Positions 5,171 through 48,383 of a DNA stretch of 64,000 bases are shown one piece after another. The position numbers were made by a program, and so were the translations under genes. The notes below the pieces were generated by a model. It searched no databases and was not told the DNA's origin. It worked only from the letters and a program-made list of their open reading frames with translations. Numbering within the stretch: position 1 is the first letter of the stretch; every line of letters starts with the position of its first letter. Origin of the DNA: a bacterium (lineage in GTDB: Bacteria; Electryoneota; RPQS01); the NCBI GenBank assembly GCA_013360195.1, contig JABWCQ010000013.1, positions 1-64,000 on the forward strand, in the 5' to 3' direction.

Positions 5171-7102
5171 CTATTTAAGAAGTACCATCTTCCGCGTCAT
5201 TGAAGTTCCGCCCATTTCGAGTTTCGAGAAATATACTCCGCTCGCCAGGCCGGCGCCGTCGAAACTCACCGTGTGAACTCCAGCACCAAGCGATTCACCA
5301 TCCAATAACGCCGCCACTTCGCGGCCCGTTACGTCAAACACCGTCAAACTGACGTTGCCGGATTTCGCCAAATCAAATTGGATGTTTGTAGTCGGATTAA
5401 ATGGATTCGGATAATTCTGATGCAGCATGAATCCCTGCGGCACCTCGGCGCGCTCATCACCAATGGCACCAATATTCGGGAAGCCTGTCGAGTCTGAACG
5501 GAATGCCCAAATCTCCTGCAGCGGAGTCGTCGGAATATCGCCCACTGGAATCCGCATGTAAATCATGTCATTGTTACTTGTCGGACCTTCAGGACCACTC
5601 GAAGCCACCGCGCTGCCCGCAGCGTAGTCATGCAAATACAGCGTGTGAATAATCCCGTCCGTCACGTACTTCGCCGTCGTAATATCCCGCTCGCTCGGAT
5701 CATTGCCCGTCGGTTGGTTAGGTTCTCCCGGTGTGTTGCTGACATTCGTTGGCACCGCCCATGTCTGCCCGTTATCCGTCGAGACACTCATGTAAAATTC
5801 GCCCATCGGATAGCCTGCATCGCTGAAAGCATGCTGGTCGAATTGCTGGAACGAACAGTATAGATAATCGTTCGTCGTGTCAATGGCCAGACTCGGACGA
5901 TGGCACATCAAATTGTTCACACCCAAAGCCACGGAATCATTGGCAAAATAGGCATGATTGATAAGGTTGAACTCCTGTCTGTCCTCGCCCCAGTGCCACA
6001 GAGTCGCATACACAAAGCCGAACGGTCCGTTGGCGCCCGTTTCGTCAATCGCAAAATACGCTTGCGCCGTGAAGGCAATATGCACATTGTCTTCGTCATC
6101 GAGAATAATGGACAAATCAAGCCACGGACGGAACGTGTCACCGACACACTCTTCATAGGTGCCGCCGTTCCCGAAGCATGTCGTGTCCACCGCCGGAATG
6201 TTTGTCACGGGAATCGTCTCTCCCCACGTCAAGCCACCGTCGTTGGAGATTTTGAGCATGATGTTCTCGTCATCCACGAATCCCGCCGGGTCGACTGGAT
6301 CGGCAATCCACGCCACCGCCACCTTGTCTGAAATCCGCGAGCACGCCACATCAATCGTAATGAACGTTGCCTCTTCCCACGGCGTCTGGAACGACTGCTC
6401 CCAATCAATCTCCAGACCGAATCCACTGTCGTAAATGGGCACGCCGCGCGCGTAATACTCTGCGCCTGCGCCGCCGCTCTCAGTGGCCACCATGTGAATC
6501 TTGCCGTGGCGGTCCTGATCAATATGCGGCCAGATAATCTGCGGCTCACCCGCCGGATATGGTACCTCAAAACCGGTAAATGCGCCACTGCAGTTGAGGA
6601 AGTCTATGGATGCCGTGGCATGCGGCAGCGCTCCAATGATTTCATGAAAACCCGGAAATCCAAACCCGTTCGGCGCCGCGACAACATTACAGAAGCCCGC
6701 GCGCGTTCCGGCGTCCACGCGGACTCCGCCGTTAAAAATGAAGCTGTCAATGCCGGACGGCCAGCAGTTGTAATAGATGTGCCGCTCCGCCGAGCCGTCC
6801 TGCTCTCCATTCGTCCAAACGACGTGCACATTCCCTTGTGCATCGACGGCAATTTGCTTGCCATGTGTTCCGTTCGTTTGATAGTCATACCACGTTCCGC
6901 CCGCTCGCGCCCATGTCGAGTTCGGCGTCCCGCCTTCATCATCCAGCGTACCTCCCGGAACGCGTTCAATGGAACCTGCCAGGACCTGTTCAAAGGCCGT
7001 TGTCGCAACAGGGCCGACGATGAGGTCCTTCGCGCTTTTTGCCACGGCAACCGCAGCTACTGAACAAACAATCAACAATGCCAAAAAGATTCGTCGCTCC
7101 AT
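5171..7102 (-). CDS. secreted sialidase/BNR-like protein with C-terminal sorting domain (paralogue)
   Basis: 643 residues from ATG 7102, with GGAGG at 7109-7113 and a signal peptide (ERRIFLALLIVCSVAAVAVA). It is clearly related to the neighbouring 3208-4989 product: both mature proteins begin with 'EGGTPNS.W...G.TW.D.QT.G..G..IAV', and share 'CSRIS.(K/R)VA(V/I)AWI.DP' and 'VPTNVSNTPGE.N.P...PSERDIT'. The C-terminal ~88 residues carry 'NYPNPFNPTTNIQFDLAKSG', 'VFDVTGREVAALLDG' and 'KMVLLK', the type IX-type/FlgD-like sorting domain. A linker of about 45 residues after the signal peptide is absent from the paralogue. Exported; ligand or substrate unknown. Tandem duplication of gene plus promoter is the likely origin. 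Confidence 0.85.
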   Translation of the reverse strand: MERRIFLALLIVCSVAAVAVAKSAKDLIVGPVATTAFEQVLAGSIERVPGGTLDDEGGTPNSTWARAGGTWYDYQTNGTHGKQIAVDAQGNVHVVWTNGEQDGSAERHIYYNCWPSGIDSFIFNGGVRVDAGTRAGFCNVVAAPNGFGFPGFHEIIGALPHATASIDFLNCSGAFTGFEVPYPAGEPQIIWPHIDQDRHGKIHMVATESGGAGAEYYARGVPIYDSGFGLEIDWEQSFQTPWEEATFITIDVACSRISDKVAVAWIADPVDPAGFVDDENIMLKISNDGGLTWGETIPVTNIPAVDTTCFGNGGTYEECVGDTFRPWLDLSIILDDEDNVHIAFTAQAYFAIDETGANGPFGFVYATLWHWGEDRQEFNLINHAYFANDSVALGVNNLMCHRPSLAIDTTNDYLYCSFQQFDQHAFSDAGYPMGEFYMSVSTDNGQTWAVPTNVSNTPGEPNQPTGNDPSERDITTAKYVTDGIIHTLYLHDYAAGSAVASSGPEGPTSNNDMIYMRIPVGDIPTTPLQEIWAFRSDSTGFPNIGAIGDERAEVPQGFMLHQNYPNPFNPTTNIQFDLAKSGNVSLTVFDVTGREVAALLDGESLGAGVHTVSFDGAGLASGVYFSKLEMGGTSMTRKMVLLK

Positions 7103-10456: not shown

Positions 10457-11968
10457 TTAAAGTTGATAAAGAGAACCGAACTTCTCAGTCAAATAGTTGA
10501 GATAGCCGTCCGTCCCGAGCGGTTTGCCCGTGGCCTTGATGAGCAGCTCGTCTCTTGAATATCTTCTTCCCAGCCGGTGCACATGGGTTCGCAGCCATTC
10601 GAGAATCTCGGCGAAATTCCCCGTTTCAATCTGCTTGTTCATCGCCGGCATGTCCTGATTCATCTTCTTCCAGAGCTGCCCCGCCGCAATATTCCCCACG
10701 CTGTAGGACGGGAAGTAGCCGAAAGCTCCGCTGCTCCAATGCACGTCCTGCATTACACCCTGCTTTCCATCGTCCGGCGGCGTTACGCCGAGATAAGTCT
10801 CAACCTTTTTGTTCCAAACCTTTGGCAAGTCTGAAACCGAAATGACTCCAGCGAACAAGTCGCGCTCAATTTCGAATCTAAGAATAATATGTAAGTCGTA
10901 TGTGAGCTCGTCCGCTTCAACCCGCACAAGACTCCGCTCGACGTGATTCACGGCAAGCACCCAGTCTTCTACCGACATGCCGTCAAGCTCTTTGGCAAAC
11001 TGCTGCAGCAAAACGGGATAGAATTGCTTCCAGAACGGAAGACTGCGGCCGATGTAGTTCTCCCACATTCTGCTCTGGGATTCATGCAGGCCGTAGCTCA
11101 GCGCTTCAGACAGCGGAGTGCCGTAAGTCTCCGGTGCGACTCCCTGTTCATACAATCCGTGCCCCATTTCGTGAATGATTCCGAATATCGCCTGCTGTGG
11201 AGCGTGCTCGTTATAGCGGGTCGTGAGCCTTACATCTCCCAATCCGCCCGAGCAAAACGGATGAATTGAGGTGTCAAGTCGTCCTGCCTGTTTGTCAAAA
11301 CCGATTTTCTCAATCAGTGTTTCTCCGAAAGCTTTCTGCTTCTCGGCGGCAAAGCGGTTCTTCTCAAACTCAAACTTCGCCTTCACTGGTGAAGAAATGA
11401 CCTTTTCAGCCAGCGGCACCGTCACCGCCTTTACTTCATCGAACAGTCTGGTCAGCGAATCCACCGTCGCTCCCGGCTCAAACCCTTCAATCAGAGCATT
11501 CAGCGGCGTCCCCTGCCAGCCATATGCGTCGGCAAGCTGCTTGCTAAGTTTCACGAGCTTCTCGAGCTCAGGTGCGAACATGGCAAAGTCCGCTTTTTCG
11601 CGCGCCCGTCCCCAGACTTCGTGCGCGAGCGATTCCTGCCGGGAAAGTTCCTCAACAAGTTCCTGCGGCACTTTGGTCGCACGCTCATAATCCCTTGCCA
11701 TCTCCCGCACATTGGCTCGTTCCGCTTCGTTAAGCTCACCGTTTGCATTCTTCAAAGCGGCAATCATTTCGCCGACTTTCGGCGACGTCAACCGTTCATG
11801 TGCCAGACCGCTGATCATGGCAATCTGGTCTGCCCGCTTCGGCGCTCCCTTCGGCGGCATGTTCACCTGCATGTCCCAACCCAGCACTCCGCTGATGCCG
11901 GACAGGGTTGAATACTGCTTGAAGTGCGTCTCAAGCTCGGCATAAGTCTTTCTGATATCTGCTGCCAT
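10457..11968 (-). CDS. M32 carboxypeptidase (thermostable carboxypeptidase 1 / Taq type)
   Basis: 503 residues from ATG 11968, preceded by AGGAAAGGA; this length is normal for the family, and upstream in-frame codons lack a ribosome site. M32 enzymes are cytoplasmic metal-dependent carboxypeptidases that remove C-terminal residues from peptides. Visible marks: the zinc site 'HEMGHGLYEQG' at about residues 266-270, the N-terminal 'LETHFKQYSTLSGISGVLGWDMQVNMPPKGAPKRA' region (WD-x-x-x-x-M-P), 'GLHESQSRMWEN', and 'LRTHVHRLGRRYSRDELL' near the C-terminus. No signal peptide, so it probably works on imported or recycled peptides. It has its own promoter about 210 bases upstream. Confidence 0.92.
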   Translation of the reverse strand: MAADIRKTYAELETHFKQYSTLSGISGVLGWDMQVNMPPKGAPKRADQIAMISGLAHERLTSPKVGEMIAALKNANGELNEAERANVREMARDYERATKVPQELVEELSRQESLAHEVWGRAREKADFAMFAPELEKLVKLSKQLADAYGWQGTPLNALIEGFEPGATVDSLTRLFDEVKAVTVPLAEKVISSPVKAKFEFEKNRFAAEKQKAFGETLIEKIGFDKQAGRLDTSIHPFCSGGLGDVRLTTRYNEHAPQQAIFGIIHEMGHGLYEQGVAPETYGTPLSEALSYGLHESQSRMWENYIGRSLPFWKQFYPVLLQQFAKELDGMSVEDWVLAVNHVERSLVRVEADELTYDLHIILRFEIERDLFAGVISVSDLPKVWNKKVETYLGVTPPDDGKQGVMQDVHWSSGAFGYFPSYSVGNIAAGQLWKKMNQDMPAMNKQIETGNFAEILEWLRTHVHRLGRRYSRDELLIKATGKPLGTDGYLNYLTEKFGSLYQL

Positions 11969-12183
11969 ATGTTTTCCTTTCCTGAACAACCGGGCGGGAC
12001 CGCCTCTTCCCGGCCATAAAAAACTCTGATTTCGGTTTGCCTCCGATTTTGCTCCGGCCAGCCCGGTCATTACGATGTATTCATGCAGAATCGATTGGTT
12101 TCGATGCGATTTTGCGCGATACCGCTAAAAGGCGATTCGATAGACAAACCCTTTTGAATTACTGAAAATACAGAACTAAGCGA

Positions 12184-27196: not shown

Positions 27197-27225
27197 CGGG
27201 TCAGGCGCAAGCCTGACCCGTTCAA
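27197..27225. terminator. bidirectional terminator
   Basis: Perfect 10-pair stem CGGGTCAGGC-GCAA-GCCTGACCCG (27197-27220), then TTCAATTTCT. It lies between the convergent TPR gene and the CHAT gene. Confidence 0.75.
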
Positions 27226-27250: not shown

Positions 27251-29983
27251 TTAGTTCAGTCTCAATTCCCAGTTGCCGCTGCTAAAGAAACCCGCCCAGA
27301 GATATGGGTGGTCGGCCAGTTGATTGCCTGAGATCCGCAACTGATTCAAGCGATGCACGGTTGCCGATTGAAGAGCGAGCGGGATGTTATGACGGTGGGA
27401 AGTCAAGAGGTTTGCCATTAAGTCCGCCGTTGAACGATCGTCCACACGCCAAAGTGTGGAGATAACGCATTCCGCTCCGGCCAATTGGAAAGCTCGTCTC
27501 AGGCTGAAGCTTCCTTCGCCATCGAATTGCATCCCTCGCGCGGATTCGCAAGCGGAGAGGACAACCAAATTCACACCGGAGAGATCAAGCTGAGAAATTT
27601 CGGCGGCAGTCAGGATGCCGTCGTTTTCACCTGCGCTGTCACCAGCAAGAATGAGAGACTGCCCGGCAAGCAGCAATTCGTGTTCAAGTTCGGGGGACAG
27701 GCTGCCTTTATCGGCATGGCTTGCGATGTAGATTGCCTGTGTGTTTGAAGCTTCCGCAAGCAACACCGATTCGGTTGCCCGAGCGCCGGAGTAGAGATGT
27801 GATACACCTTGCAATTGTTCGTTCCAGAGAGCGGCGAAGCGGACTGCCTCCATAGCTGCGAAAGGCAGAGTCTGCGGTGCGCGCTGGAGCCGGGTATGCG
27901 TGTACTCGGGGTCCGCGAGAGCGAGCAGAAGGGGATTTCGCGCTACGGCTTGCCCGTTGCTCTTGCGTCTGACATCACGCGCGGCGGAGAGATAGTGAAG
28001 CGGATGTTCTTCAATGAGGAAGCGACCGGACTCAAGTGTGAGTGCATGAAAAGCGACACCCGATAGGGCAGCGTCCGGAGAAATCAGGAGTAAGTTTGCC
28101 TCAGTTGTGTAGGATTCAAGCGGGTCCCAGATGAGTTTTCGAAGTTGAACCGTGAGCTTCCGATTTCGTTCGAGATTCAGCATTTCCGGCACGGCCAAAT
28201 CATCGCTCCAGCGCAAAGCAGCAGCATCAATGGGTGCGGCATCGCCGAGGTCGATATTTGTCAGAAGCCCCGCAGTTCCGAGAATCACTGCCGCATAGCG
28301 GGGGCTGCGGCTGTCTTCCCGATTGGTATGTGTGTAGCGATAGTATTCGACCAAAATGGCACCCGGCGGTATCGCCTGGCTGACGTCATTCAAGCCGAAG
28401 TCCAGCAGGTCCCGGCCTGAGCGGTAGCGTGCGCTCATTTCAGCAAGTTGCCGTTGGATTTTCTCGATATTGGAAATGACATCTCCCGATTCTGCGCCAG
28501 CGGGGGCGCGGACGGGCTGCAGTTCCTTGCGCCTTTCTGCGAGAGAATTAAGCAAAGTTCGGGCAAGCGGATCGTGAAGTTCGCGCAAGATGCCGGAGCG
28601 AATCATGAGCGCATCTGTAACAACCGACTTGCCCGTTACAACGGCTTCGGCAAACTCGGTGCTGTGCAAAAACATATCCGGCGGCTGCTCGCGAAGCAGC
28701 GAAAGGTAGAAGTCTGACAGGTCGCGAAGTTGTCTCGAATAGGAGTAAGCTTCGGTATCTGAGAGATTGTCAAAGAGTTCCAGAAAGTTCGCCCGGGCGA
28801 TATTGAGGCTTTGCCGTCCCAAAGCAAGCGCGGCGGGAATGTCGCCACGTTTTTGTTCCAGTTGTGCCAATGCCTGCAGGCAATCGGCACGGTCGCGGCT
28901 AAGAGGGGCGGCAAACTGTTCATAAAGATTAAGAGCACGTCGCAGCAGACGGTCCGCCTCAGTCAGTTCATTCAGGTTTAGATAGAAGCTGCCGCAAATC
29001 CTGCATGCATCGGCAATGGCGGACGAATTGGAGGTTACCAGATTGAGATCATCGCGCAATCTATTGAGTTCGCGGCGCAGCGAGGTCAAATCCTCCAGAG
29101 AAGAATAGGACACGAGAAGATTTGCCCGGGTAAGCAACGACAGAGGATGGCGCGAGCCGTATGCCTGCTCGAGAAAGGAAACGGAGAGTATCTGATGCTC
29201 AAGTCCCTCGTGAAGGTCGCCAATGCGATCGAAATAGAGTGACAGAGCGTTGTGCGCCAACGAGCGTGTCAACGGACTGACTTGTCTTTTCGACTCCAAC
29301 AACTCCTGTACTTTGGTCATCGCAGACTGTTCGCCGGCGAAATCACCGAGTTCGGCGCGGACAGTCGCAAAGTTTATCCATGCCTGCAGAAGAAGCGAAT
29401 CGGCAGCAGTGCCTGACTGTTGATAGATTGGGATTGCCGATTCCAGGAGACTGCTTGCCGCGGACCAAGATTGGCCGCGCATGTCAGCCAATGCGAGCGC
29501 GGAGAGTCCGATCGCATAGCGCCAGTGATTTTCAGAGTAGAGTGATTCTCGAAGTGTCAGGGCACTGTCGAGAAGCACTTTGCCGATTGAATCGTCGCCG
29601 ATTTCACAGCAAAGCAGTCCGAATTCCTGCAGCACTGCGATGTGCCCTGCAATGGCCGAACTGTCGGCGGGAAGTCCTTGTCGGAGCAGATGTTCGTAGA
29701 GTTGTGCGGCTTCGGAAAAATGTCCGACGCGCGCATTGGCATTCGCCAGATTCAGGATTACATTGAACGTGTTTGAATGAAGTGAATCGGCGGCGGGCTT
29801 GTCGTGCAGTAATTTCTCGCCCAATTCAAGTGCAGCGAGCGTGTCTCCGGCTGTGAGCAGGGAGTCTACAGAAACAGCAATCGCCCGCACATCTGCAGGC
29901 GATTGACGTGAACATGAAACTGCAATCACAGCCGCGAATACGGCACAGAGAAGATTCGCTACCGTAAGGACGCGCGAAGACAA
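27251..29983 (-). CDS. TPR-CHAT (caspase-like peptidase) lipoprotein
   Basis: 910 residues, starting at TTG 29983, 15 bases after the previous stop; the ribosome site is weak. The N-terminus is a lipoprotein signal with lipobox IAVSC, so the protein is lipid-anchored outside the cytoplasm. Residues ~30-450 are TPR-like helices ('AAQLYEHLLRQGLPADSSAIAGHIAVLQEFGLL', 'ALALGRQSLNIA'). The C-terminal CHAT domain has both caspase-type catalytic residues: His756 in 'IYIASHADKG' and Cys812 in 'VVLSACESARG'. It ends in the typical 'LWRVDDRSTADLM...HPYLWAGFFSSGNW'. CHAT proteins are cysteine peptidases related to caspases and separase. Last gene of a sigma/anti-sigma operon, it may cleave a partner outside the membrane; the substrate is unknown. 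Confidence 0.87.
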   Translation of the reverse strand: MSSRVLTVANLLCAVFAAVIAVSCSRQSPADVRAIAVSVDSLLTAGDTLAALELGEKLLHDKPAADSLHSNTFNVILNLANANARVGHFSEAAQLYEHLLRQGLPADSSAIAGHIAVLQEFGLLCCEIGDDSIGKVLLDSALTLRESLYSENHWRYAIGLSALALADMRGQSWSAASSLLESAIPIYQQSGTAADSLLLQAWINFATVRAELGDFAGEQSAMTKVQELLESKRQVSPLTRSLAHNALSLYFDRIGDLHEGLEHQILSVSFLEQAYGSRHPLSLLTRANLLVSYSSLEDLTSLRRELNRLRDDLNLVTSNSSAIADACRICGSFYLNLNELTEADRLLRRALNLYEQFAAPLSRDRADCLQALAQLEQKRGDIPAALALGRQSLNIARANFLELFDNLSDTEAYSYSRQLRDLSDFYLSLLREQPPDMFLHSTEFAEAVVTGKSVVTDALMIRSGILRELHDPLARTLLNSLAERRKELQPVRAPAGAESGDVISNIEKIQRQLAEMSARYRSGRDLLDFGLNDVSQAIPPGAILVEYYRYTHTNREDSRSPRYAAVILGTAGLLTNIDLGDAAPIDAAALRWSDDLAVPEMLNLERNRKLTVQLRKLIWDPLESYTTEANLLLISPDAALSGVAFHALTLESGRFLIEEHPLHYLSAARDVRRKSNGQAVARNPLLLALADPEYTHTRLQRAPQTLPFAAMEAVRFAALWNEQLQGVSHLYSGARATESVLLAEASNTQAIYIASHADKGSLSPELEHELLLAGQSLILAGDSAGENDGILTAAEISQLDLSGVNLVVLSACESARGMQFDGEGSFSLRRAFQLAGAECVISTLWRVDDRSTADLMANLLTSHRHNIPLALQSATVHRLNQLRISGNQLADHPYLWAGFFSSGNWELRLN

Positions 29984-29998
29984 GGTGGCACTCGCTTC

Positions 29999-30613
29999 TT
30001 ACAGGATTACCGCGCCGACGGCAACGCCGGCCAGAAAGGCACCGGCAAGAGGAAGCAGGATCGAGGAAGCATGTCCTGTACCTGGAGGCACGGGGATACG
30101 CTTCTTGCGGACGACCACATCGACGGGAAGGACTTCATCATCCTCTTTGGAATCGAAGCTGTCCGAACCGGACGTCGCGGTTTCATCAGTGCTCTCACTT
30201 GATACCGAATACATTACTGAAGATTCAAGCGGTTTGCCGGAATCATCGGTCGAATCCGGTTCGAGTCCCATGATTCCGACAAATTCGGAACTCAGCGACG
30301 GATCAACGGAAACTGAGAATTCAGTTGCAGTGCCCAAGCTTGGTATTTCATCTCCGGTGTCATAAGCGAGCACGACGGCATACACTTGAGCGGGTCCTGA
30401 CACGGTGGTGTCACTATCTACGAAGGCATCATCGTAACCAATCGGAAGCAATCGAATCGCCAAGCCGGCATGGCGGGGATCGAGTTCGATGTTGACGGTG
30501 GCGGATTTGTCGCCTGTGCGTCTGACAGATGCATTGCGAAACGGCGCCAATCTCAGAGAGAGATCGTACGCGGCAAGACTATCGGCAGTTCCGGTCTCAG
30601 TAACGACTGGCAT
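29999..30613 (-). CDS. tail-anchored protein of unknown function in the sigma/CHAT operon
   Basis: 204 residues from ATG 30613, with GGGAG six bases before it. I do not recognise the N-terminal ~125 residues (beta-rich, 'SLRLAPFRNASVRRTGDKSATVNIELDPRHAGLAIRLLPIGYDD'). They are followed by an acidic Ser/Asp/Glu linker ('SSESTDETATSGSDSFDSKEDDE'), a basic RKKR, and one C-terminal membrane span of about 20 residues (SSILLPLAGAFLAGVAVGAV). The basic residues before the span imply the soluble part faces the cytoplasm, near sigma and anti-sigma. It sits 29 bases after the anti-sigma gene and 15 before the CHAT gene. It could be an adaptor or a substrate in the circuit. Confidence 0.7.
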   Translation of the reverse strand: MPVVTETGTADSLAAYDLSLRLAPFRNASVRRTGDKSATVNIELDPRHAGLAIRLLPIGYDDAFVDSDTTVSGPAQVYAVVLAYDTGDEIPSLGTATEFSVSVDPSLSSEFVGIMGLEPDSTDDSGKPLESSVMYSVSSESTDETATSGSDSFDSKEDDEVLPVDVVVRKKRIPVPPGTGHASSILLPLAGAFLAGVAVGAVIL

Positions 30614-30642
30614 GTGCTTCTCCCTTGCGGTAAGTTATGTCG

Positions 30643-31470
30643 CTATTCGAGTCTTTTCATTAAGTCCCGTGCCTCATCGGCACGAGCAGACTGAGTTGAC
30701 ACGAGAGTTTCAAGAATTTTCGCCGCACTCTTTTGCTCGCCTTGCTGCAAGAGAATGAGTGCGCGATAGAATTCGGCTTCCTCGAAGACGATGCGGTTCG
30801 TGGAATCAACGCGGCCCAGCGCCTTTGCGGCCAGGTCAAACTTCTTGGTTTGATAGTAACAGACAGCAAGATACAGTGCAGCCTGCGCGTCTTCGCGAAG
30901 AGATAGGTATGCAGACAGGTCACGAGCGGAGGCCTCGAAATCCTGCCGTACATAGTACTCCCGGGCGCGCAACAAGATTGAATCGGGGGCTTCCTGGCCG
31001 CGGCTTTGCCATCCGTACCACGCAGGAGGCTCGTATTCCCCGATAGCTGCCGGCCGGTCGCCTCTGAAGATGCCTAAACCGATCACGAGCAGAAAGGCCG
31101 CTGCGGCCGCGAATGCTAAAGCCGCTTTGGGGCCGAACAGGCTTTCCCAACTGAACAAACGAGGTTTAGACAACTCTCCTCGAATATCGAGAGGCTTGAG
31201 TTTCGGCTTGTTCGTTTCGAGTTCGAGGAGGGAATTTATCGAGATTCCTTCGCTTGCAAATGCGGAAACGATTTCCTGACGATTGGCCCTTAACGAATCC
31301 GCAAGTTGTCTCATTTGTGCGGCTTCGTGCAGGCAGAAGTCGCAATCCATCAGATGCTTTTCAAAGGCCGAGCGCTGTTCGGGAGAAAGTGTACCGAGTT
31401 CGAATTGCATGAGCAGTGCGCCAAGCTCGGGTGCACAACACTCGCTATGATGATCAGAAGAGTGTGTCAT
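30643..31470 (-). CDS. anti-sigma factor with zinc-finger domain and external TPR
   Basis: 275 residues. The N-terminal zinc anti-sigma domain has His39-x3-Cys43-x2-Cys46 ('FEKHLMDCDFCLHEAAQM') with an upstream Cys11/Cys12 pair. A membrane span lies at about 113-133 ('ALAFAAAAAFLLVIGLGIF'). The rest is TPR-like ('ILLRAREYYVRQDFEASARDLSAYLSLRED', 'ALYLAVCYYQTKKFDLAAKALGRVDS', 'AEFYRALILLQQGEQKSAAKILETLV') and would be outside the cytoplasm. In this family the N-terminal domain binds the sigma factor and releases it on a signal or after proteolysis. ATG 31470 overlaps the sigma gene's stop (ATGA), the usual translational coupling of such pairs. Confidence 0.87.
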   Translation of the reverse strand: MTHSSDHHSECCAPELGALLMQFELGTLSPEQRSAFEKHLMDCDFCLHEAAQMRQLADSLRANRQEIVSAFASEGISINSLLELETNKPKLKPLDIRGELSKPRLFSWESLFGPKAALAFAAAAAFLLVIGLGIFRGDRPAAIGEYEPPAWYGWQSRGQEAPDSILLRAREYYVRQDFEASARDLSAYLSLREDAQAALYLAVCYYQTKKFDLAAKALGRVDSTNRIVFEEAEFYRALILLQQGEQKSAAKILETLVSTQSARADEARDLMKRLE

Positions 31471-32252
31471 GCCAATTGCCCCGCGGTGATGTCTCTGAGC
31501 TTGCGGCGGCAGTCAAAGAGCCGTTTATCAAATGCATTGCGGCTGAGTCTGGGTTCGCGCTGTTGATAGGCCTCCCAAACGTCGGCCACCGAACTAAGCT
31601 GCAGCAAAGCGAGAAAAATGGCCTGGCAAAGCGGCGAAAGTTTTTTCAGCGCCGTCTGCAGTTTAACGGCGATTTCGGAACCATGAAGATGATCAAGCAT
31701 TTCATCATGGCTGTCGGAGGGCAGCTGCAATTCCGAGTTTGCCTCGTCCTGCTCGTTTATGGAGCCGGTGGGATTCAAGGAGATCATGGTGCGGCGCTTC
31801 CGCTGTCTGAGCAATCCCCCGATCTTGTTCTCCAGCACGGTGAGCGAGAAGTAGTGCGGGTTGTCGTTTATGGAGTCCAGCTTGATGAAGACCACGGCAA
31901 GAGAGTCCTGTACGACATCTTCAATTTCCTCGGCGGGCCAACCACGCAGGCGAAACCCGCAAATGGTAAGAAGGCGTTCACGCAACAGTTCAAAGAGTCG
32001 ATTGCGGTCAGCCTCAATCCCGTTCTTGGCATTGTTTAACAATAAGTTCCAATCGGGAGTCATAGTCAGTTTACGTGGACTAAGGTGAGAGGTCGCGGCC
32101 ACACCGTTTGCGTAATGAACCTCGACATTCTCCGCGGGGTTTGTTTCAAGAACAGGAGTGGTTCTTTCTGACCGGGGGACTTGGCAGATGCCTGGCCAAA
32201 AGGGCCGGCACTCAGTCTCGGTCACCGGCAATACAGCAGCTACTGAGTTCAT
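31467..32252 (-). CDS. ECF-like sigma-70 family factor
   Basis: 261 residues if started at ATG 32252, which has an AAGGG six bases upstream (inside the preceding gene) and lies three bases after that gene's stop. An alternative ATG at 32063 gives a conventional 198-residue sigma factor but has no ribosome site. Region 2-like: 'RGWPAEEIEDVVQDSLAVVFIKLDSI', 'NKIGGLLRQRKRR'. Region 4-like: 'LQTALKKLSPLCQAIFLALLQ' and 'LSRNAFDKRLFDCRRKLRDI'. It would direct RNA polymerase to a regulon not visible here. The optional ~63-residue N-terminal extension is unlike known ECF factors. Operon with anti-sigma factor and CHAT protein. Confidence 0.82.
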   Translation of the reverse strand: MNSVAAVLPVTETECRPFWPGICQVPRSERTTPVLETNPAENVEVHYANGVAATSHLSPRKLTMTPDWNLLLNNAKNGIEADRNRLFELLRERLLTICGFRLRGWPAEEIEDVVQDSLAVVFIKLDSINDNPHYFSLTVLENKIGGLLRQRKRRTMISLNPTGSINEQDEANSELQLPSDSHDEMLDHLHGSEIAVKLQTALKKLSPLCQAIFLALLQLSSVADVWEAYQQREPRLSRNAFDKRLFDCRRKLRDITAGQLA

Positions 32253-32255
32253 AAT

Positions 32256-32594
32256 TTACCCTTTGCGTTGACCGGAGTCAAGCAGAATGACCCGGTTTGT
32301 GTTTTCGGTCCAGCTCACGGGCTTCGTGCGCAGGACGGTTATTATCGACCTGTTCCCCTGCCAGATTAGTCCTGCACGCCCTGAAGGGGGGCGGCCGGTA
32401 ATCAGACGCCGGTTGTCCATGGCAATGAAGCGGTCTATCTCCTTGTTGATGCGCCTGCGCTCGACCAGGATACAGGTGAGCCAGCAGCCGAAGAAGAATG
32501 CCGTAGCCCCGATCATTTTCCATTCGATGCTTCCCAAGGTGAAGAGTACGCCGCCGCTGGTCAAGCAAGTAAAGATGGTAAGTCCGCATTTCAT
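32256..32594 (-). CDS. small two-span membrane protein, first gene of the sigma/CHAT operon
   Basis: 112 residues from ATG 32594, with AAGGAA six bases upstream. Two hydrophobic segments (CGLTIFTCLTSGGVLFTLG and MIGATAFFFGCWLTCILV) form a hairpin, followed by a basic cytoplasmic tail of ~65 residues starting ERRRINKEIDRF. I do not recognise the family. Its stop is three bases before the sigma start, and it supplies that gene's ribosome site, so it is part of the same message. It could be a sensor or accessory of the circuit. Confidence 0.6.
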   Translation of the reverse strand: MKCGLTIFTCLTSGGVLFTLGSIEWKMIGATAFFFGCWLTCILVERRRINKEIDRFIAMDNRRLITGRPPSGRAGLIWQGNRSIITVLRTKPVSWTENTNRVILLDSGQRKG

Positions 32595-33537: not shown

Positions 33538-33941
33538 CAGGAAGATTGAGCTGCTTTTTGGCAGTCAAGCAAGAATGGTAGTTTTTAAGTTACTTTCAAT
33601 AAAATAAATAATTTAAATATTATTGCCGAGTTAGGTGCAAGTGTCAAGTTGGGGCAAATTATTAGAATTTGATGAGCTTTGTGGTTGACATTGCGGGTGA
33701 AGTTGAGCAATTTTAGGAACCTCAGACACCAGTCGAGATTCGCGACTTCGTAAAACGGACTTCAGACTGGACATCCATCCATCTTCAGGTAATCCATCCA
33801 TCCATCTTCAGGTAATCCATCCATCCACAGCGAAACGACCGGTGGCGAAGGCCATTGAGATGCGCCTACTGCAGGTGAAGATCATGCACCGGAGCCATGT
33901 GAAGGCGGACAGACGCGCTTATCAGAACGGCGAATTCCATT
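33538..33941. other. intergenic region before the phosphate genes
   Basis: About 400 A+T-richer bases with no gene. It contains TTGACA (33685-33690) 17 bases before CAATTT, a possible promoter for the phosphate pair with a poor -10, and the ATCC tandem repeat described separately. Confidence 0.6.
33773..33830 (+). repeat. short tandem repeat (ATCC-rich, ~23-base unit)
   Basis: Unit ATCC-ATCC-ATCC-ATCTTCAGGTA. The first copy has 19 bases (one ATCC fewer), the second 23, and the third breaks off after three ATCC. The ATCC count varies between copies, as expected from slippage. Confidence 0.85.
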
Positions 33942-44697: not shown

Positions 44698-47600
44698 TCA
44701 TTCAGTTGCTACGGTACCTGAAGCGACCGGTTTTTCATGGAAGATACCTGATTCCATACGCGCAGTACTTAGTTCATTTGCGTACTTTTCGCTCCCGGGA
44801 CACAGTTTTGTTGCTTCGCGCAGATACACAACCGCCTGTTCCGGTTCATTAAGCTGCCTATAGTTCAAGGCAAGCTGACTTAGCTGCTCCGCCCTTTCAC
44901 ATCCACTGAAATTGCTTTTTGCCAGCAAGGATGTTGCGCGGAGAATGTTTGCTCTTTGCGAAAGATAAGGCAAGTCGGGACGTTTGCGAGAAGCCACTGT
45001 CCATAGGCCGGCGGCGCGATCAATGTCGCCAAGTAATTCATAGATTGCGGCTGCATCGATATAGGCATGAACATCGTCCGGATTAATTTCCGTCGATTGT
45101 ACATAAAGTTCCGCTGCACGTCGCAGCCTAGCCTCCTCAACCGCTCCGGACGGATCGGCGTCGTTCCAAATTGCCAATGCCTCATCGCAAGTGTGCGGAT
45201 GTGTGTCATCTGACTTTGCAGGATGATCCATTACAGGAATGACCAGCCGGCTGCTCTCCCAAGTGCGTAACGCACTTGAATCGAGAGCAAGCTTGCTGAA
45301 CTGCCGATATTTACTCTCGACAGTCAGGTCTCGCGACGTAATTTGAAGAAGCCGCGAGTAGGCCCATGCGGCATCCGCGACAAATTCGTGCCGCTCGCAG
45401 AGCATGGCGAAGTTGTTCAGAAGTATTGCGTTTGCAGAATCCATGCTGATTGCCCGCCGCAGCGTATTCACGGCGGCGACTATGTCTCCGTCCGCATATT
45501 CTGCGGAAGCGAGACCAACAAGCAGGTTGACGGAATCCGGGAAAGCCGCGGATTTCCGCATAGCTCGAACGCGATTCATTTGAACGGGAATTGCGTCGTA
45601 GATACTCTTGGTCGGTTTCAGGTATTTGGCTTGCAGCAGATTCTCAACCGCATCATCGAACTTACCCAGCCTGGCCTGGGCACGGGCGAGATTCAGTCGC
45701 GCCACAGTGTGATCCGGGGACAACTGTAACGCGCGGCCGAACTCCGCTTCAGCATCTTGCGGCCGATTAGAGTTCAGGTAGAAAACTCCGAGTGAATTCC
45801 TTACAGTCAAGTCATCAGGATTTCTTCCAAGATACAACTCGAAGTGTCTGATTTTCTCGGGACAGGCGTTTATGTGATGTTCAACATTCGCGTCGTACAG
45901 CGCAGATTGCTGGGCAACGTAGACTGCTTCGCTGAACTTAGACTGATCTCCGGTCAAGAAACCAGTGTTTAATCTGCGTGCGAGGTCTTCATAGACCGAC
46001 ATTTTGGCCGGGAAATCCCCGGGCACTCCCGAACCGGGATCGATGTAATTGCGAATGGACTCCTGATAGCGGACAATATCCAAGCAATTGTCGATTCCCC
46101 GACTATCCTGTGAAACGATGAATTGAGCATACGGCAAATTATCAGTACTTACTTTTTCGAATCCATCGAGCATTCGCGCAACACCGTCTTCACCCAATGC
46201 AAAGAAGCTGAGAAACTTCTCGGGACTGTCAATCCCGAACTCGGCGAGGCCCGATTTCTCGTAAAGAGGTTCAAGCCTTTCGCTGAGTTCGGCATAATCT
46301 ATGTTCAATCTCTCAGGAGTTCCAAGCATGAGGATCTGCGAAGAGCCGTGAATCACCCATACACTCATGTGCGGGAAAGCCGAGCGAAAAGTGTTAAAGA
46401 TTGTCTTAATAGCGTCGGCAGGCAGCGGAATCAATGCCCATTGACAGAAGATTCCGCCGGGCTTCAGCCGGGACTTCACCAATTCATAAAATTCCTGAGA
46501 ATAAAGCGTCCACGAATCAAACATTTTGGGATTCGTCGCATCGGAAATGATCATTGAGTATTCCCGATCAGACAAAAGTAAGGCGTTTCGACCGTCATTT
46601 ACAACTTGATGAAAATTCGGCTGATTGTAAACGTCAAGATTCTCTCTCGTGTAGGCTTCGGCAATGCCTTTGATGTCCGGATTTAGATCGACGCAATCCA
46701 GCGACTTTATGTTGGACGCGGTTGCTCCGGCGGACATTCCGGCTCCGAATGCAATCATGAGAGCGTCATCGGGCTCCTCGTGCAATACCGTGGGAAGTAA
46801 TCCAAGCAGTTTGAACAGTTGAACGTGCCAGAGTCGCGAAGACGCTTCGTTTACTGCGTTGAGGTGAAAGTCCTTGTATCCGAGGTTCTTAAAGTCATAC
46901 ACAACGACATTGGCAATCCTCCCTTCCTGATAATAGACAATATCGGCATAGGGATGCGCCGCCTGGAACAGACTCTTGAATAAATGTTGCGGTGCGGTAA
47001 TAAAGAGAAGGGCGATAATGCCAACGGCGCCCGCAGCCCAAACTGGCCTCAGCGTGCTTCGTGATACGGCGATAAGCGGCAGGACTGCTGCAATCAGATT
47101 TAAGGATGCAACGATCAACACACCTTTATGAAGGCCTGTCAGCGGAAGAAGCACAAACCCGGCGAGAAACGCGCCCAGGATCGCACCGATGGTATTGACT
47201 GCGTATACCGTTCCAACACTTGTACCCTCCTTGTTTACTCCTTTTCGGCAAATCTGAATTGCGAGCGGCACAGCAATGCCCATCATAATCGTCGGTGGGA
47301 GCATGACCAGTGCGGTCTTGACAAGTGTGAGTGTCTCGTCAAATCGGTTGAAAATCGTTGAGTGGAACAGGCGGAAGATAAACGGTGTGGCAAAGGAGAT
47401 GATTCCTATGCCGAGCTGCAATATGACGAAAACCGGGATTTGGTGCTTTGAGCGTGCGAGAACACGTGCGTAAAACAAGCTCCCGACAGCAATGCCAATC
47501 AGAAAAGTCCCGAGGATTGCTGTAAATGAGTAAATGTTATTGTGCAGGAACATGTTCAGCATCCGGGTCCAGAAGACTTCATAGGCGAGTCCGCAGAAAC

Positions 47601-48345
47601 CGGAAATGGCAATTCCCACGAGCACCATTTTAATAACAAATGGGCTGTAGGGCGATTGCGTGCCCGGTTCGTGCGCAGATGCAGATTCCGCTGCAGATAC
47701 CAGTGACTTCTCATTGGCACTTTTAGCGAGCAGCCATGCGGCACCCGCGACTCCCAGATTGATAGCCACCGCAATCCACGTCGTGTGCTGCATTCCCAGA
47801 AACCGAAGCAGGAAATAGCCACAAGAAAATGTCCCCAGCACGGCGCCAACAGTATTCAGACCATACAGGAATCCGGTTTCACTGCCAATTGTGTCCTCGG
47901 ATCTCGTGAAGCGCTTGATAAGCACGGGCAGTGTACCGCCCATCATAAACGTCGGTACTCCTATGATGAGGAAGCAAACAAAAAAGCGGATTAGATTGAG
48001 ACTGACGATGCTGCCTTCGACGGCACGAAATAGATACGTGTACAACGGCATAGCCGCATCAATCACGAACGGAAAGAGCAATGCGAAGATGCCGATTCCT
48101 GCTTCGAGAACCGCATAGACCTGCAGCAGTGATCGTGGCTTGCGGTCAATATATCTGCCAAGTATGTAGCTTCCGGCCGCCAGTCCCCCCATGAATGCGG
48201 ACAACACTGTTGCGGTGGCAAGCATCGTGTTTCCGAACACCAGAACGAGCATTCGAGTCCAGACGATTTGGTAGATAAGGCCGGATACACCCGACAACAG
48301 GAAGAGCGAGTAAACCAGTAGTTTGTAGTTTCTATATTCAGTCAT
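44698..48345 (-). CDS. membrane spermidine-synthase-like protein fused to TPR
   Basis: 1215 residues from ATG 48345 (GTG 48363 is six codons upstream; neither has a ribosome site). Residues 1 to ~460 form about 14 membrane spans in two MFS-like halves, each beginning 'SGVSGLIYQIVWTRML' / 'SGFCGLAYEVFWTRML', the signature of membrane-bound spermidine synthase-like proteins. Next comes a Rossmann domain with 'LMIAFGAGMSAGATAS', 'VDLNPDI', 'VVNDGRNALL' and 'MIISDATNP', matching the SAM-binding and catalytic-Asp region of SpeE-type aminopropyltransferases. From ~residue 800 to 1200 are TPR repeats. The donor and acceptor are unknown. The combination of transporter-like spans, transferase and TPR in one chain is known in FCB and Planctomycetes-type genomes, but its function is undetermined. 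Confidence 0.83.
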   Translation of the reverse strand: MTEYRNYKLLVYSLFLLSGVSGLIYQIVWTRMLVLVFGNTMLATATVLSAFMGGLAAGSYILGRYIDRKPRSLLQVYAVLEAGIGIFALLFPFVIDAAMPLYTYLFRAVEGSIVSLNLIRFFVCFLIIGVPTFMMGGTLPVLIKRFTRSEDTIGSETGFLYGLNTVGAVLGTFSCGYFLLRFLGMQHTTWIAVAINLGVAGAAWLLAKSANEKSLVSAAESASAHEPGTQSPYSPFVIKMVLVGIAISGFCGLAYEVFWTRMLNMFLHNNIYSFTAILGTFLIGIAVGSLFYARVLARSKHQIPVFVILQLGIGIISFATPFIFRLFHSTIFNRFDETLTLVKTALVMLPPTIMMGIAVPLAIQICRKGVNKEGTSVGTVYAVNTIGAILGAFLAGFVLLPLTGLHKGVLIVASLNLIAAVLPLIAVSRSTLRPVWAAGAVGIIALLFITAPQHLFKSLFQAAHPYADIVYYQEGRIANVVVYDFKNLGYKDFHLNAVNEASSRLWHVQLFKLLGLLPTVLHEEPDDALMIAFGAGMSAGATASNIKSLDCVDLNPDIKGIAEAYTRENLDVYNQPNFHQVVNDGRNALLLSDREYSMIISDATNPKMFDSWTLYSQEFYELVKSRLKPGGIFCQWALIPLPADAIKTIFNTFRSAFPHMSVWVIHGSSQILMLGTPERLNIDYAELSERLEPLYEKSGLAEFGIDSPEKFLSFFALGEDGVARMLDGFEKVSTDNLPYAQFIVSQDSRGIDNCLDIVRYQESIRNYIDPGSGVPGDFPAKMSVYEDLARRLNTGFLTGDQSKFSEAVYVAQQSALYDANVEHHINACPEKIRHFELYLGRNPDDLTVRNSLGVFYLNSNRPQDAEAEFGRALQLSPDHTVARLNLARAQARLGKFDDAVENLLQAKYLKPTKSIYDAIPVQMNRVRAMRKSAAFPDSVNLLVGLASAEYADGDIVAAVNTLRRAISMDSANAILLNNFAMLCERHEFVADAAWAYSRLLQITSRDLTVESKYRQFSKLALDSSALRTWESSRLVIPVMDHPAKSDDTHPHTCDEALAIWNDADPSGAVEEARLRRAAELYVQSTEINPDDVHAYIDAAAIYELLGDIDRAAGLWTVASRKRPDLPYLSQRANILRATSLLAKSNFSGCERAEQLSQLALNYRQLNEPEQAVVYLREATKLCPGSEKYANELSTARMESGIFHEKPVASGTVATE

Positions 48346-48383
48346 ATTTAGGACTAATACCACATTTCATTAGAGTGAACGCT

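Follow-up and report, generated by a model that had tools for sequence, protein, structure and literature searches.

DdvA of Myxococcus, the partner of the sigma factor DdvS, links a transmembrane zinc anti-sigma factor to a CHAT peptidase domain (PDB 8rot, 8rw5 and 8rlz), whose aligned part contains both His and Cys. In type III-E CRISPR systems, the sigma inhibitor Csx30 is cleaved by Csx29, a CHAT protein that is cytoplasmic and activated by RNA (PMC10028731). For the ECF54 group of extracytoplasmic function (ECF) sigma factors, proteolytic control by neighbouring CHAT, subtilase or carboxypeptidase proteins has been proposed, without an anti-sigma factor (PMC8999054), and the EACC2/caspase conflict systems place a caspase-fold peptidase beside an ECF sigma factor (PMC8195603). 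Here we describe a locus in a 64-kb stretch of contig JABWCQ010000013.1 (assembly GCA_013360195.1, Electryoneota), hereafter the window, which likewise combines these elements. As judged from sequence comparison, its conserved core is three genes, encoding an ECF-like sigma factor, a zinc anti-sigma factor with an external TPR domain and an exported TPR-CHAT protein. The CHAT protein probably acts as a site-1 protease that cuts the anti-sigma factor after Arg157, whereupon RseP-like proteolysis would free the sigma factor.

Homologues were collected by running a profile of the anti-sigma factor alone, carrying no CHAT information, on further genomes. This yielded 49 anti-sigma factors from at least six phyla (that of the window and at least five others), which share a mean pairwise identity of 25%. 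At 39 of the 49 loci the anti-sigma gene has CHAT as a neighbour no more than 1.4 kb away; at one further locus (L126) it is 5.8 kb away, at another (L055) a C14 caspase takes its place, and the other eight lie close to contig ends, where absence of CHAT is not judgeable. CHAT matches number 36 in 61 genomes, with the sigma homologues mostly beside them, and the genome of the window holds one CHAT gene. A sigma profile found nine loci in genome contigs and no relatives in the viral contigs searched. Three arrangements occur: CHAT-sigma-anti-sigma in most of the window's phylum, sigma-anti-sigma-CHAT in the window as well as in several further phyla, and, in one phylum, a CHAT gene that is transcribed divergently from the sigma-anti-sigma pair. 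Mapping these on the anti-sigma tree takes about 12 changes, whereas shuffles take 28. Linkage persists through rearrangement, which argues for a shared function, and its recurrence in several phyla indicates that the core is not a product of chance. A preliminary description of the locus had considered that CHAT genes might adjoin sigma genes no more often than chance, which these counts do not bear out; the gene order that it reported is one of three, the linkage being what is kept. In the divergent clade, 13 loci (L116:2305-3147 and 12 related ones of the same phylum) carry a conserved fourth gene behind the anti-sigma gene; its product, secreted and ~240 aa long, is a possible sensor, target or regulon member.

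Among solved structures, the anti-sigma profile finds zinc anti-sigma domains (PDB 3hug_B, 4.4e-7; 8rlz_A, 1.9e-4; RsiW 5wuq, 5e-3), and the single-sequence match to Pfam zf-HC2 falls narrowly below the cut-off. An AlphaFold2 model supports a single membrane span, with a TPR domain at the C-terminal end. By its H-x3-C-x2-C motif (H39/C43/C46) and these profile matches, the protein is assigned to the zinc anti-sigma factors (ZAS, class I), and the zinc anti-sigma factor with a membrane span and external TPR of the preliminary description is upheld; binding and inhibition of the sigma factor are predicted from the ATGA coupling of the two genes and their conserved adjacency. Arg157 is the sole fully invariant column of the alignment (49 of 49 anti-sigma factors), the zinc ligands being kept in 44 of 48. 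It lies in a low-confidence coil of the model (residues 136-163) between the span and the TPR domain. The aligned Arg is mostly preceded by Val or Leu and is followed by Gly, Ala or Ser in 42 of the 49, a [V/L]-R-[G/A/S] linker context typical of a protease site. It stands mostly 19-30 residues from the span among the homologues and about 22 in the window protein, a spacing similar to the one at which DegS cuts RseA. R[GAS] is found in 45 of 49 real linkers vs 19±3 of 49 shuffled ones, and [VLIMF]R[GAS] in 33 of 49 vs 5±2; Lys, Asp, Glu and Gln, put through the same linker shuffle test, show no excess. Cleavage after Arg is the rule in most clan CD families, among them separase, metacaspase, paracaspase, gingipain R and clostripain (PMC4357240, PMC4626109). 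Two homologues (L066:1877-3988 and L065:768-1904) have an ectodomain lengthened by Ig-like domains, and the L066 protein has a type IX secretion sorting tail at its end, which is odd for an inner-membrane anti-sigma factor.

The CHAT protein of the window matches PF12770 (CHAT) with E=4.8e-51, and its His756 and Cys812 occupy the aligned catalytic positions of the CHAT homologues. In the alignment, both residues are retained in nearly all linked CHATs; homologous operons generally lacking the pair, a prospect raised in the preliminary description, are thus not what is found. The top structural match of its AlphaFold2 model is Csx29 (8eey_B, E=1.4e-14), human separase also being matched (1.7e-12), and a fold search of the model led to DdvA as the closest solved relative. 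A single-sequence PDB search gave chance-level matches only, and PDB relatives were found with domain profiles instead. By domain, His/Cys dyad and caspase/separase fold, the protein is a clan CD CHAT peptidase of predicted activity. An N-terminal hydrophobic signal in 37 of 38 linked CHATs predicts export. The protein had been described as a TPR-CHAT lipoprotein with an intact dyad, and the domain, the dyad and the lipobox of the window protein stand; a lipobox is present in only a minority of linked CHATs, and lipid anchoring as a defining feature is rejected. Asp849 sits, as far as position can tell, where a separase model has the Asp at the start of helix α4 that holds the P1-Arg (PMC4626109). 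At L055 (8556-12050) a WD40-Peptidase_C14 caspase stands in the place of CHAT, upstream of the sigma and anti-sigma genes; it has an N-terminal span, and its GHG/DACHSG motifs are intact.

Other CHAT architectures were noted in passing. In one phylum the protein is split: a divergent gene encodes a TPR protein that includes the front portion of CHAT (L106, L131, L132 and L136), and the catalytic half resides on an exported protein of ~265 aa inside the sigma-anti-sigma operon (L132:3222-5744 and 6072-6872; L106, L131, L135 and L136). Giant CHATs of 2700-2900 aa (L114:2512-10641 and 11240-12016; L143 and L144) are unlinked to this sigma factor, and one of them adjoins a FecR-like protein, as judged by eye.

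The retained dyad bears on whether CHAT cuts at all. CHAT and the anti-sigma factor might instead form one sensory complex, in which CHAT binds the linker Arg and signals by conformational change, the caspase fold serving as a peptide-binding module. The long TPR arms of CHAT and the TPR of the anti-sigma factor would fit stable binding, and in DdvA, where zinc anti-sigma, membrane span and CHAT are joined in one chain, proximity alone may do. A pure binder, however, would be expected to lose His and Cys more often than the linked CHATs do, and the C14 substitute also keeps its own dyad; moreover, the Arg stands in a disordered linker with small residues following it. We regard such a complex as unlikely.

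The link between CHAT and Arg157 can be probed at loci that depart from the pattern. L058, the only full-context homologue without a CHAT or caspase neighbour, keeps the F-x-P-x-x-Y portion of the linker motif and has Glu in place of the Arg (LILES). A second locus, L102, in which the CHAT Cys is replaced by Trp, the anti-sigma factor is truncated and sigma is missing, was considered as a degenerate-paralogue control and withdrawn as split or mis-assembled: the second anti-sigma factor of that genome (G095) is divided between L138:6659-7492 and L102:7179-11052, and the missing half, Arg included, lies at L138 beside unreadable bases at the break. Several points weigh against cleavage by CHAT at this residue. 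The L058 control is a single case, and L104 keeps the Arg with no CHAT in the 7.9 kb downstream, its contig ending 453 bp upstream. The aligner may pull in a nearby Arg, although the shuffles argue otherwise, and the invariant Arg could serve elsewhere, for example in docking or as a structural cap. The catalytic pair is altered in a broken gene at L057 (His to Asp) and in the paralogue of the split L102 locus. The clade with the divergent arrangement has Gly in place of Asp849, although its anti-sigma factors keep the Arg. Finally, no residue of Csx30 is essential for cutting by Csx29, a CHAT precedent that is not Arg-specific (PMC10028731).

That the only studied sigma-linked CHAT lacks Arg specificity also favours a reading in which Arg157 is the site of another, trypsin-like envelope protease, and CHAT senses or regulates that protease or has another substrate; it is textbook background that the site-1 proteases of other sigma systems (DegS, PrsW, signal peptidase) are encoded elsewhere. 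Against this, it is CHAT or a caspase that recurs at the loci, with no other protease family seen recurring in a non-exhaustive survey of neighbours, and the CHAT-less L058 is without the Arg. We therefore hold this reading to be quite improbable, and favour CHAT as the site-1 protease.

The proposed sequence of events is as follows. In the resting state, the anti-sigma factor would keep the ECF-like sigma factor at the inner membrane through its zinc domain in the cytoplasm, with its TPR domain outside. An envelope signal would activate the exported TPR-CHAT, a separase/Csx29-like cysteine protease, probably via its long TPR arm, and CHAT would then cleave the anti-sigma factor after Arg157, about 22 residues beyond the membrane, shedding the TPR domain. 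The remaining stub would be open to an RseP-type intramembrane protease, for which an RseP-like M50 gene is present in the window's genome, and the freed sigma factor would transcribe its targets. We infer that cleavage is due to CHAT and falls behind Arg157; the site-2 step, the activating signal and the set of sigma targets are likewise inferred. That an exported CHAT cuts the outer part of the anti-sigma factor and so frees sigma had been put forward in the preliminary description; the idea is strengthened by the linkage, the catalytic pair, the export signals, the C14 swap and the Arg invariant in 49 of 49, and the comparative support is strong for a cleavage that remains a prediction. Docking of the two proteins through their TPRs, also put forward there, would be a possible contact. 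In a final alternative, CHAT is itself encoded by one of the sigma targets, for example as a protease effector of death or defence that is placed here because sigma controls it, and the anti-sigma factor is opened by other means. Sigma factors often control adjoining genes, as is textbook background, and CHAT is divergently transcribed from sigma in one clade; such a role would leave unexplained that the Arg is invariant next to genes of the caspase family, that a membrane-anchored C14 caspase replaces CHAT at one locus and that DdvA fuses CHAT to an anti-sigma factor, and we give it the least credence of all. The module is real, conserved and multi-phylum, with a specific predicted cut site, and is best described as a variant of the sigma/anti-sigma proteolytic switch in which cleavage is putative.

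The features of the locus are collected in Table 1. Intergenic gaps from CHAT through X, anti-sigma and sigma to Y are 15, 29, -4 and 3 bases; the value of -4 is the ATGA through which the sigma stop overlaps the anti-sigma start (translational coupling). CHAT and the anti-sigma factor are separate genes 0.66 kb apart, and the operon likely ends at the terminator-like hairpin.

Table 1. Coordinates of the sigma/anti-sigma/CHAT locus and its elements in the window
Feature	Position	Strand	Description
TPR-CHAT gene	27251..29983	minus	910 aa, predicted exported; Pfam CHAT, dyad alignment, AlphaFold2, N-terminal hydrophobic segment
Lipobox IAVSC in CHAT signal	29912-29914 (Cys24 codon)	minus	
CHAT catalytic residues	27716-27718 (His756 codon); 27548-27550 (Cys812 codon)	minus	Aligned to homologues
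Asp849 codon of CHAT	27437..27439	minus	Start of helix α4 after β5; assigned by position only
Open reading frame (ORF) X	29999..30613	minus	204 aa, C-terminal tail anchor; orphan, outside the conserved core
Anti-sigma gene	30643..31470	minus	275 aa
Anti-sigma layout			Zinc domain 14-86, membrane span 114-135, linker 136-163, external TPR 164-274
Anti-sigma zinc motif His39-x3-Cys43-x2-Cys46	31333..31356	minus	Homologue alignment
Anti-sigma Arg157 codon (CGC)	31000..31002	minus	Context QS-R-GQEAP; proposed P1 of site-1 cut
ECF-like sigma ORF	31467..32252	minus	Conserved part from about codon 64 (about 32063)
ORF Y	32256..32594 (ATG start)	minus	Possible small two-span membrane protein; orphan, doubtful gene
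Terminator-like hairpin	27197..27220	minus	10 bp stem, 8 G-C; directly after CHAT gene

The sigma factor, first described as ECF-like, is so in a divergent form: it matches the sigma70-ECF model TIGR02937 with E=2.2e-5, under the curated cut-off, shows a weak Pfam match to region 2 (E=0.03) and gave no match to region 4. Its true start may lie near codon 64, at ~32063, because the first residue of most homologues corresponds to about residue 64 of the ORF and the extra 63 N-terminal codons have a coding score of -0.04; in that case Y would be about 190 bp distant. The operon had been described as five minus-strand genes, and the ORFs, positions, gaps and ATGA overlap are confirmed; Y perhaps does not belong to the operon, because no homologue occurs at any of the fetched loci and its coding score of 0.06 is intermediate (right frame 0.17±0.06; wrong frame -0.13±0.08). 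Y gave a weak generic 2TM match in PADLOC, which no other operon protein matched, and as a two-span conserved part of the system it is not supported. The tail-anchored X, once suggested as a CHAT substrate, has no relatives across 60 genomes, and this rules it out as an explanation of the conserved system. With X and Y orphans, the likely substrate is the anti-sigma factor. Elsewhere in the window, a 23-base tandem repeat of about three copies (33772-33836) occupies the gap before a PhoU-like gene, and a 1221-aa protein (44698-48363) combines MFS-like, spermine-synthase and TPR regions in a single chain.

If the proposed cleavage is true, a caspase-fold enzyme outside the membrane would be a new class beside the known anti-sigma site-1 proteases, which include serine, membrane and signal peptidases, and bacteria would have a new route from an outside signal to gene expression. 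For bacterial CHATs, many of them without a known substrate, the anti-sigma factor would be a defined one, with a scissile bond that is predicted. DdvA and the Craspase of type III-E systems would be connected with a larger family, which would hint at the origin of the caspase-sigma partnership.

Among described systems, DdvA is in effect a fusion of the window's anti-sigma factor and CHAT, which supports the partnership and lowers its novelty. DdvA is a single polypeptide, whereas the protease of the window is a separate exported product replaceable by a C14 caspase; and unlike DdvA, as compared on its aligned domains, the anti-sigma factor of the window has a TPR domain of its own and a linker with a conserved Arg. 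The type III-E Csx29/Csx30/CASP-sigma system (Craspase) shares a TPR-CHAT of the same fold and a sigma factor held by a cleavable inhibitor. Csx29, however, is cytoplasmic and triggered by RNA via Cas7-11, while the CHAT of the window is predicted to be exported, and the inhibitor here is a membrane zinc anti-sigma factor with an external TPR, unlike Csx30. The operon as a type III-E remnant is rejected, with the Csx29 equivalog model scoring 15 bits against a cut-off of 300 and no CRISPR-like array in the 64-kb window. The independent design suggested in the preliminary description is only half borne out, given the homology of CHAT to Csx29 and the existence of DdvA, which already joins anti-sigma and CHAT. 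ECF54 is described without an anti-sigma factor, and by that description is set apart from the window, whose anti-sigma gene overlaps sigma; an anti-sigma factor is present at every compared locus by construction, having been the search query. For the EACC2 systems, the part of the account at hand gives a conflict setting and describes no membrane zinc anti-sigma factor or linker site (PMC8195603). Within the literature searched, papers mentioning both the CHAT domain and sigma factors apparently contain nothing on this system, the ECF classification and the DdvS/DdvA literature not having been fully compared. It is a tentative and rather doubtful extension that a widespread, hitherto undescribed sigma/anti-sigma family with a dedicated exported separase-like site-1 protease, cutting at one invariant Arg, was ancestral to DdvA (by fusion) and to Csx29/CASP-sigma (by a move to the cytoplasm). 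Mechanistically, the proposed order is that of RseA-DegS-RseP (E. coli sigma E), a site-1 cut just outside the membrane followed by a site-2 (M50) cut; the site-1 enzyme is a PDZ serine protease in the RseA system, whereas here it is proposed to be an operon-encoded, caspase-fold cysteine protease.

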